From Candidatus Kapaibacterium thiocyanatum (GTDB taxonomy: Bacteria > Bacteroidota > Ignavibacteria > Kapaibacteriales > Kapaibacteriaceae): 64,000 nucleotides of DNA. The notes beneath the pieces were generated by a model, which saw only the letters and a program-made list of their open reading frames with translations, did not search any database and was not told where the DNA came from. The stretch covers positions 62,001 to 126,000 of the forward strand of contig MKVH01000002.1 of NCBI GenBank assembly GCA_001899175.1, written 5' to 3'. Positions 38,105 through 40,931 of this stretch are shown in pieces (the stretch's first letter is position 1; each line of letters opens with the position of its first letter). The position numbers and the translations under genes are program-made.

Positions 38105-38179
38105 TCGGGGTGGCAGGATTCGAACCTGCGGCCTTCTGCTCCCAAAGCAGACGCGCTAACCGGGCTGCGCTACACCCCG
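38105..38179 (-). tRNA. tRNA-Pro (UGG)
   Basis: A 75-nt cloverleaf on the minus strand. The acceptor CGGGGTG pairs with CACCCCG, the D-arm contains TAGCGCAGCCCGGTTAGCGC, and the anticodon stem TCTGC/GCAGA encloses TTTGGGA with anticodon TGG. The T-arm has GGTTCGAATCC. CCA is not encoded. Confidence 0.96.
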
Positions 38180-38244: not shown

Positions 38245-38276
38245 TTGCGTTCGACTATATGGCTGTTGTATCTTCG
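38245..38276 (+). promoter_or_regulatory. Promoter (-33 TTG, -7 TATCTTCG) for a structured transcript
   Basis: TATCTTCG at 38269-38276 with a TTG 21 nt upstream at 38245. Transcription would begin near 38281, exactly at the foot of a GTTACC/GGTAAC hairpin. The nearest downstream gene begins at 38740. Confidence 0.5.
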
Positions 38277-38280
38277 TACT

Positions 38281-38401
38281 GTTACCGATTGGTAACCGCT
38301 GTCACCGCGGTACGGAACATATCCGAATCGCAGTGAAAGTGAAAGGTGAGAAGGGGAGTGCCCCTAGACGAGTGGTGACGTCTAGGGGTATCTCACATTT
38401 A
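38281..38401 (+). ncRNA. Candidate structured leader or small RNA with competing hairpins
   Basis: From the predicted start at 38281 the sequence can form: a hairpin GTTACC-gatt-GGTAAC (38281-38296); a hairpin ACCGC/GCGGT partly competing with it (38295-38311); AGGGG-agtg-CCCCT (38352-38365); and a 10-bp stem CCCCTAGACG/CGTCTAGGGG with an 8-nt loop (38361-38388). The last two share bases 38361-38365 and cannot coexist. An outer helix AAAGGTGAGA/TCTCACATTT (38342-38351 with 38391-38400, one mismatch) encloses both. No known riboswitch, 6S, SRP or tmRNA signature is recognised. Confidence 0.4.
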
Positions 38402-38651
38402 GGGCCTTCCTCACGCCAGAACCCGCCCGTGCCGATCCCCCCTGGACATCGTTCCCGTTATCTTCGAGATTTCATGGCAAGCGTGGTTCATCATGCGGAA
38501 CCTGACGTTCCCCGTGGCAGAATGTTCCCGCCGCGGTGACACCCGTTCATCGTACGGACCAAATGGGACCATGTCGAATGGTATCCGGATGACCCGTTTC
38601 CGGTGGATGGGGGAACCTTCCGTGCGATCATGCCCCGGGGAACGGTGTGGC

Positions 38652-38739: not shown

Positions 38740-40038
38740 ATGCGTCGTTCATGGCTCCCTCTGCTTCTTGCCCTGATCCTGCCCGCTCTGCCCGTCGTTG
38801 CCGGCGAAGAGATTCCGGGCGCACCGCAGAAACAACCGATCGCCCTCGTCAATGCCGTCATCCATACCGTCGCCAACGGTACGATCCCGCATGGGACGGT
38901 CGTGTTCGACAATGGACGTATCACGGCAGTAGGTGATGCCGTCACGCCACCGTCCAATGCACGCGTGATCGACTGCGAAGGGAAGCATGTCTATCCCGGT
39001 TTCATCACGGCAAGTACGATCCTGGGACTATCCGAAATCGATGCCGTGCGCTCCACGCGCGACTTCTCCGAAGTTGGGACCATCAATCCGAACGTCCGTG
39101 CGGAAACGGCCTACAATCCCGATTCCGAGATCATACCGACGGTGCGCAGCAACGGCATCCTCATCGCCAACGTGACACCGGGTGGCGGCCTGATCGCCGG
39201 CATGGCATCCGTCATGCGTCTCGACGGCTGGACGCGCGAAGACATCGCCATCAAGCCCCGTGCGGCCATGGTGATGAACTGGCCTGCGATGGACGTGGCC
39301 ACCGGCTGGTGGGTACGCAAGAGCGCGGAAGAACAGCAGAAGGAGATCGACAAGGACTTCCGCGAGGTCTACAGGGTGTTCGATGAAGCACGGGCCTATT
39401 CGCAGATGGCGCAGGCACGTGTGGACACCAACCGCCGCGACATCAGGATGGAAGCCATGAGGGCCATCTTCGAGGACTCGCTTCCGGTCATCGTCTACGT
39501 CACGACGCGGCGGCAGATCGAGGCCACGCTGGACTTCGCGAAGCACTACGGTCTGCGCCTCATCCTCGCCGGTGCCGAAGACATCGGTCTCGTGCTGCCG
39601 CAGCTCCAGCGTGCCGGCGTATCGGTCATCATCCCGCGCGTCCATGCATTGCCGCGACATGACGAGGATGCCTACGACGCACCGTATGCGTTGCCTGCAC
39701 TGCTCGCACGCAACAACATTCCCTTCGCCTTCTCCGAGTTCGGCACATGGCAGCAGCGCAACCTGCCCTTCCATGCCGGTACCGCGGTAGCCTTCGGGCT
39801 CTCCGAAGCCGACGCCGAGCGCTCGCTCACGCTCGTGCCCGCACGCATGCTCGGGATCGACGCATCGTACGGAAGTATCGAAACGGGCAAGTCGGCCACG
39901 CTTTTCGTGAGTGCCGGCAATGCGCTCGATGCCCTGACGAACAAGGTCGAACAGGCCTTCATCGATGGCCGCAGCGTCGATCTCTCCAATCGCCATATCC
40001 GTTTGTCGAAGAAGTATCGGGAGCGGTACAAGCAGTGA
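38740..40038 (+). CDS. Secreted amidohydrolase-like protein lacking the HxH metal motif
   Basis: The protein has 432 residues. A signal peptide (MRRSWLPLLLALILPALPVVAG) precedes an amidohydrolase fold related to imidazolonepropionase-type proteins: the beta-sandwich start (ALVNAVIHTVANGTI), a DCEGKHVYPGFI strand, and the closing sandwich (TGKSATLFVS). Where active members have a His-x-His after PGFID, this one reads PGFITASTILG, so the first two metal ligands are missing and it may not be a hydrolase. A GGAG 5 nt before the ATG lies partly inside a hairpin. Its stop overlaps the next gene's GTG. Confidence 0.8.
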   Translation: MRRSWLPLLLALILPALPVVAGEEIPGAPQKQPIALVNAVIHTVANGTIPHGTVVFDNGRITAVGDAVTPPSNARVIDCEGKHVYPGFITASTILGLSEIDAVRSTRDFSEVGTINPNVRAETAYNPDSEIIPTVRSNGILIANVTPGGGLIAGMASVMRLDGWTREDIAIKPRAAMVMNWPAMDVATGWWVRKSAEEQQKEIDKDFREVYRVFDEARAYSQMAQARVDTNRRDIRMEAMRAIFEDSLPVIVYVTTRRQIEATLDFAKHYGLRLILAGAEDIGLVLPQLQRAGVSVIIPRVHALPRHDEDAYDAPYALPALLARNNIPFAFSEFGTWQQRNLPFHAGTAVAFGLSEADAERSLTLVPARMLGIDASYGSIETGKSATLFVSAGNALDALTNKVEQAFIDGRSVDLSNRHIRLSKKYRERYKQ

Positions 40039-40931
40039 TCGCCGACGGTACGCTCCTGGAAGCACGGCAGGTCGAGATACCTGCGAGTGCGTTGTCGATG
40101 GCACGGCGTTCGCTCGAGGGCCAGAACCTGGCTCGTTTCGAGCACGTGACGCTGCACGAAATCACCTATGCCAGTCAAGGACTGAAGATCAAGGGGTGGC
40201 TGGCGCTGCCGCATGCGGGCCAGGCCTCGTATCCCGCGCTGATCTTCAATCGCGGAGGATCCGGTCCGCGTGGCGCGCTCAGCGCCGAAGGCGCCATGGC
40301 CTTCGCCGGACTCTATGCGTCGTGGGGCTACGTCTGCGTTGCCAGTAACTACAGGGGACTCGGTGGTAGTGACGGTACGGAGGAATGGGGCGCCGGTGAC
40401 GTCGACGACGCCCTGAACCTGCTTCCTCTGCTCGACTCGCTCGGCTACGTGGACCGTTCACGGATCGGCATCATCGGAGGCAGTCGTGGCGGAATGATGG
40501 CACTCATGATGCTGGCGAGGACGGACAGATTCCGGGCCGCCGTCACGTTCGGTGCGCCGTCGATGATCCATGCAGTGGATCAGTCGGCCTACATCCGAAA
40601 GACAATGCTGAAACATTTATCGCCGGAAGCAGACATACAGTTGGAAGCGGAACGTCGCTCTGCCGTCCTCTGGGCCGACAAGCTGAACAAGGCGACTCCG
40701 CTGCTGGTACTGCATGGGACAGGGGACAGAAGGGTGACACCCGAACATGGACTGCATCTTGGAATGGCATTGCAGGAATGTCTGCATCCATACAAACTGG
40801 TGATGTACGACAATGCCGATCATGTTCTTGCCGGTCGCAGGGAAGAATCCAACGCCGATATCCGCTGGTGGGTCGACCACTACGTGCGCGATGGAAGCCC
40901 GTTGCCCAGAGTCGGTCCGCATGGCGCCTGA
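40035..40931 (+). CDS. Alpha/beta hydrolase, S9 prolyl-oligopeptidase-like
   Basis: The protein has 298 residues. The catalytic triad is visible: nucleophile Ser in GGSRGG (about residue 153), Asp in GTGDRRV and His in DNADHVL near the C-terminus, in the order of the S9 peptidase/dienelactone hydrolase superfamily. The GTG at 40035 overlaps the previous TGA (GTGA), implying coupling; a downstream ATG at 40098 would cut into the N-terminal region. There is no signal peptide, so it is probably cytoplasmic, unlike its exported upstream partner. Peptide or ester substrate unknown. Confidence 0.82.
   Translation: MIADGTLLEARQVEIPASALSMARRSLEGQNLARFEHVTLHEITYASQGLKIKGWLALPHAGQASYPALIFNRGGSGPRGALSAEGAMAFAGLYASWGYVCVASNYRGLGGSDGTEEWGAGDVDDALNLLPLLDSLGYVDRSRIGIIGGSRGGMMALMMLARTDRFRAAVTFGAPSMIHAVDQSAYIRKTMLKHLSPEADIQLEAERRSAVLWADKLNKATPLLVLHGTGDRRVTPEHGLHLGMALQECLHPYKLVMYDNADHVLAGRREESNADIRWWVDHYVRDGSPLPRVGPHGA

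Follow-up and report, generated by a model that had tools for sequence, protein, structure and literature searches.

The window analysed here, a stretch of 64,000 nucleotides from Candidatus Kapaibacterium thiocyanatum, contains a short intergenic element that is located between a divergently oriented tRNA gene, a neighbour common to many genomes of the same family, and an operon with an amidohydrolase-like gene in the first and an S9-type hydrolase gene in the second position (Table 1). The initial annotation had described a -33/-7 promoter aimed at a hairpin beginning at the expected transcript start. The TTG, the -7 box TATCTTCG and the stem-loop were all found in the sequence, and the position of the -7 box places the expected start near 38281. 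The distance of about 340 nt to the next gene was likewise confirmed, the gene start lying 339 nt past the element. As drawn initially, the outer helix pairs AAAGGTGAGA with TCTCACATTT (38342-38351/38391-38400) with one G-A mismatch. Folding of the region 38270-38420 yielded -63.4 kcal/mol compared to -45.1 +/- 4.3 kcal/mol for dinucleotide shuffles (z -4.28), and none of 200 shuffles reached an energy as low.

Table 1. Features of the element and its neighbours in the window.
Feature	Position	Strand	Basis or remark
tRNA-Pro(TGG), divergent neighbour	38105..38179	-	Rfam RF00005; ARAGORN
Putative promoter	38245..38276	+	TTG at 38245-38247 (-33-like) and -7 box at 38269-38276
5' stem-loop GTTACC-GATT-GGTAAC, predicted transcript start	38281..38296	+	Sequence and fold
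Lineage-specific 5' domain, predicted long hairpin	38297..38341	+	Fold and alignments
Conserved RNA core	38339..38404	+	DNA identity among relatives and covariance models
Outer helix P2, 38346-38351 with 38391-38396	38346..38396	+	Covariation
Unpaired conserved AGGGGAG between P2 and P3	38352..38358	+	GGGG at 38353-38356
Main hairpin P3 (12 bp), 38359-38370 with 38379-38390, loop AGTGGTGA at 38371-38378	38359..38390	+	Covariation
3' end of the conserved unit, weak U-run here (CACATTTA)	38391..38401	+	T-run statistics over 44 loci
Amidohydrolase-like protein, predicted signal peptide	38740..40038	+	ORF; weak C-terminal PF01979 match
Alpha/beta hydrolase, S9-type, start codon uncertain	40026..40931	+	PF00326, E 1.8e-28

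Three genomes of the family, represented by the window (38281-38296), L101 and L112, have GTTACC/GGTAAC-type palindromes at the predicted start, and in the latter two they similarly come after the -7 box; the palindrome is perhaps a 5' stabilising hairpin. The PF01979 match of the amidohydrolase-like protein is confined to the C terminus and remains below the cut-off. As PGFITASTILGL replaces the HxH metal motif that the family normally carries, the protein may be an exported homologue that has lost its catalytic activity.

A search against Rfam 15 gave no family for the element at the gathering threshold, in agreement with the earlier statement that the region matches no known RNA class. Only tRNAs reached the threshold, and at E values up to 10 only tRNA and one chance miRNA match were obtained. 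At this level, the element also matched none of Chlorobi-1, Chlorobi-RRM, Lnt, and SAM-Chlorobi (RF01696, RF01697, RF01711, RF01724), structured RNAs from related phyla that were identified by comparative genomics (PMC2864571). The shape of the element is unlike that of 6S RNA, and RF00013 matched neither the element nor the genome, a genome-wide negative that is weak because RF00013 also misses the Bacteroides control. The literature searched contained no small-RNA work on Kapaibacteria, which are known almost solely via metagenomes.

Conservation and covariation of the RNA core

When 60 related genomes were searched at the DNA level, 44 yielded a single match each, with 74-98% identity; the matches spanned no more than about 70 nt, with the conserved core (38339-38404) at their centre. 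The flanks outside this stretch did not align in any of the genomes searched. In a model-based alignment of 44 sequences, 15 of the 18 base pairs of P2 and P3 vary at both positions, and pairing is maintained in 97.0% of the cells (P2: 5/6 pairs, 92.5%; P3: 10/12 pairs, 99.0%); none of 500 shuffle controls reached any of the covariation or pairing measures. The covariance analysis of homologues that had been suggested initially thus revealed compensatory changes. This alignment is biased towards structure. An alignment of 26 sequences made without the model does not have this bias; here, both partners vary in 8 of 18 pairs, and the proportion of paired cells is 97.8%, compared to 37-54% in slid controls. 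Conservation and covariation thus place the main structure far beyond chance, and the element almost certainly represents a real, new structured RNA family that is restricted to one class.

Paired changes can also preserve the symmetry of an inverted repeat, as expected if the element were a DNA site for a protein dimer, or else a terminator alone, and not a structured RNA. We consider this highly improbable: unpaired or asymmetric positions are conserved (AGGGGAG, the loop GUGGUGA, and the loop of the 5' hairpin), G-U pairs are frequent in the helices, and the U-run and the promoter occur on one strand only, while the 90% identity observed between families is not seen in plain terminators.

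The initial annotation had further proposed that two hairpins compete for CCCCT inside the outer helix, and had taken this as the design of an attenuator or riboswitch. Both hairpins can be drawn, and GGGG (38353-38356) can pair with CCCC (38361-38364) in all 23 distinct rows of alignment A2. However, not a single pair of this competing hairpin changes on both sides in these rows, and in genus g3 the GGGG strand is gone and the main hairpin kept. A two-state switch is thus unsupported. Covariation is limited to the long hairpin and the outer helix, and several lineages carry the element away from the amidohydrolase and hydrolase genes, so that the attenuator or riboswitch interpretation was not upheld.

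At the position occupied in the window by the lineage-specific 5' domain, most other families carry a conserved CUCCUUUCGUUGUGGUGGUGAAAGG hairpin. The sequence of the 5' hairpin UUUC-GUUGUGGUGGU-GAAA is conserved in families f3, f7, f8, f9, f10, and f16; f4 has a shorter version and f5 a modified one, and in much of f1, including the window, another sequence takes its place. Its pairing CCUUUC/GAAAGG occurs in most families, yet is either invariant or lost and is therefore unproven by covariation. GUGGUG(A) is found in the loops of both the 5' hairpin (GUUGUGGUGGUGA) and P3 (GUGGUGA). These loops are not universal, loop 1 missing in f4 and most of f1 and loop 2 in f5 and f6; f7, f8, f9, and f16 have the two of them intact. 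A long-range CUCC/GGAG pairing was rejected after inspection by eye, as neither f7 nor f9 retains it.

Frame-breaking length differences occur within the conserved stretch (GTGAAAGG/GTGAAAAGG; indels in f5, f3g9, and f16), and single-base insertions lie in the best-conserved stretch of the element, indicating that it is non-coding. Its sequence changes track base pairing. A short peptide (UUG/AUG-UGG-UGG-UGA or longer frames) was rejected, as the indels break the frames and they are lost in f1 and f4. In most families (for example at L108, L112, and L088), the 5' loop contains UUG or AUG followed by UGG-UGG-UGA, which resembles a minimal Met-Trp-Trp-stop frame, and a T-to-A change that keeps the start codon was seen twice. 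This resemblance is probably due to chance.

Distribution and predicted transcript ends

Of 123 genomes of the order, which comprises Candidatus Kapaibacterium and relatives, 59 contained the element according to the covariance model R1, each in one copy; with this model, no match was obtained outside the order among 296 genomes of the phylum. With model R2, four further genomes from another order of the class were obtained (59-76 bits), and model R3 recovered the element in four of five genomes of the second order and in no other class among 395 phylum genomes. The copy in the window scored 95.4, 91.7, and 89.9 bits with R1, R2, and R3, respectively. A lone weak match in G500 (E 0.0036) was judged by eye to be a different terminator-like hairpin and was discarded, and the covariance search found no element in family f2. 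A GTDB pattern scan returned matches only in Kapaibacterium, Ignavibacteria or unclassified Bacteroidota-type MAGs, and no exact match to the element pattern occurred in viral contigs. Among the relatives identified by the DNA search, the neighbouring amidohydrolase protein is 41-65% identical; an RNA that is kept once per genome in two orders, with near-invariant loops beside such proteins, is probably important to the cells.

Conservation, covariation, copy number, distribution, and the changes of neighbours are computational findings; transcription of the RNA, its termination and its action in trans are predictions. The housekeeping sigma factor of Bacteroides has a -7 consensus of TAnnTTTG and a TTTG-like -33 element (PMC7366714). 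When scored on this consensus, the best upstream box averaged 5.61 over 41 loci compared to 4.58 in shuffles; at several loci of f1 and f7, the upstream boxes are all weak. A TAnnTTTG-type promoter of its own probably drives transcription of the RNA, and the box positions predict a length of mostly 85-125 nt.

A run of at least four T within 16 nt after P3 was present at 61% of 44 loci compared to 9.7% of control windows further downstream. In f3g9 and f4, P2 is lost and the T-run comes directly after P3, a placement that fits a terminator. In most lineages, the P2/P3 hairpin together with the U-run would act as an intrinsic terminator that ends the transcript. The U-run of the window, like that of most f1 relatives other than those of g3, is only CACATTTA or weaker, and termination is therefore doubtful in these genomes. 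Some 50-130 nt upstream of the element, genomes of the second order carry an additional stretch (CTCTCTCTGATGGTGGTGTGCA...) that is conserved between genera and, at L185 and L186, contains another GGUGGUG, suggesting that the RNA may be longer there. The family provides a covariance model as well as a clear predicted start and end.

Promoter-like boxes were also found in front of the downstream gene. A box matching at least five of six positions stands just before the ATG at 11 of the 21 amidohydrolase-linked loci with enough sequence (4.2 expected), and f1g3 and f3g9 have a clear second promoter box. The layout is clearest in genome G012 (L120), where a TAGATTTG box, a short RNA and a hairpin with T8 are followed by another TAGATTTG box, which lies 7 nt upstream of the ATG of the amidohydrolase gene. 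The box scan of the upstream sequence gave no clear second promoter before the amidohydrolase in f5, f6, and f9, so that read-through would be possible in these families.

Gene neighbourhoods and possible mode of action

The element often lies 22-130 nt upstream of an amidohydrolase-like or S9-type hydrolase gene, just before the former in f1, f3g9, f5, f6, and f9 and before the latter in f7g50, f8, and f10. In f7g13 it either precedes obg by about 190 nt or is found elsewhere, and in f3g18 it is located between lspA and a convergent gene; both genes flanking it in f3g27 are antisense, and in f4 it is far from the amidohydrolase and hydrolase genes. At least three genomes of the second order have it near an nth-like endonuclease gene. 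A steady leader position 5' of related genes was not observed, with obg, nth or no sense gene downstream in several lineages; thus, the element is not tied to one downstream gene. Tested members of the order with neither the amidohydrolase nor the hydrolase gene beside the element carry both genes elsewhere. In G005 and G015, the amidohydrolase gene is retained and a TAGTTTTG or TAGATTTG box closely precedes its ATG, and the covariance search detected no element in either genome.

The initial annotation had offered two options, an independent small RNA or a long leader of the operon. As a cis-acting leader, P2/P3 would terminate transcription unless a ligand or a protein favoured another fold, similar to terminator-type riboswitches and attenuators, with which the element shares a terminator-like hairpin near the operon start in many genomes. 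The terminator-like 3' end, the position 22-130 nt before one of the two genes in most families, and the lack of a visible second promoter box before the gene in f5 are consistent with such a leader. The f2 genomes tested also have neither the element nor close relatives of the two genes; this joint absence fits a functional tie to the operon, but weakly, since it concerns one clade. However, both genes are absent from the vicinity of the element in f7g13, f3g18, f3g27, f4, and f16, and some loci have no downstream sense gene. The absence of covariation in the competing hairpin and the retention of the amidohydrolase in G005 and G015 also speak against a leader, and in contrast to terminator-type riboswitches and attenuators the element is not bound to an operon and its alternative fold is unsupported. 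The varied neighbours, together with G005, G015 and the layout of G012, favour a separate RNA gene over an obligate cis leader. We therefore regard the leader as unlikely; the usual place of the element beside the operon would reflect either old synteny or a functional tie.

An RNA with dual use, which serves as sRNA by default but whose transcription in some lineages continues into the gene next to it, would have both trans and cis effects. This would suit f5, with its strong element promoter and no second box, as well as f1g3 and f3g9 with their clear second box, but intergenic distance and sequence vary and the read-through is itself a prediction, which makes such a combination improbable. 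Of the two initial options, the independent small RNA is the better one, and we favour with reasonable confidence that the family consists mainly of free-standing sRNAs acting in trans.

In such an sRNA, the GUGGUG(A) motif would be displayed in the loops of the 5' hairpin and P3, and the AGGGGAG strand would be held unpaired. Most likely, either the single-stranded loops or the AGGGGAG strand would be offered to an mRNA or a protein. A duplex test of the RNA against the start regions of the amidohydrolase and hydrolase genes revealed no enrichment of complementarity over dinucleotide shuffles; the test is weak, as its energies come from long gapped duplexes. The genome has no Hfq. It encodes a single small RRM protein (L193, G000:C19:22165-22374, 107-aa frame). 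In Bacteroides, the RRM protein RbpB binds RNA on a global scale (PMC11697453). That the single-copy RNA binds a protein, for example the sole RRM protein, through its repeated GUGGUGA loops and thereby constitutes a new global regulator of Kapaibacteria is a tentative and rather improbable extension.

The closest parallels are GibS and the FopS family of B. thetaiotaomicron, Hfq-independent sRNAs that are also short and intergenic, that have a promoter of the TAnnTTTG type and a hairpin acting as terminator (both predicted here), and that occur in a genome without Hfq and with an RRM protein (PMC7366714, PMC11697453). In contrast to GibS and FopS, the element is present in one copy per genome, and its conserved hairpin is much longer and has loops that are also conserved; it shares no sequence with them, belongs to a different class of the phylum and has no Rfam match. 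CsrB and RsmZ are sRNAs that titrate a protein by means of the motif GGA. The element resembles them in the repetition of an identical motif in hairpin loops, but this motif is GUGGUGA instead of GGA and occurs in two copies only. The family may represent a case of riboregulation in a branch of the Bacteroidota that lacks Hfq and bears an RRM protein.

Further observations concern the sequences adjoining the element. At three f5 loci (L083, L085, and L089), a conserved TGCGTCAACAG block lies between the element and the amidohydrolase gene, and at L164 (G044:C259:11335-12213) the hydrolase gene beside the element contains one in-frame TGA.
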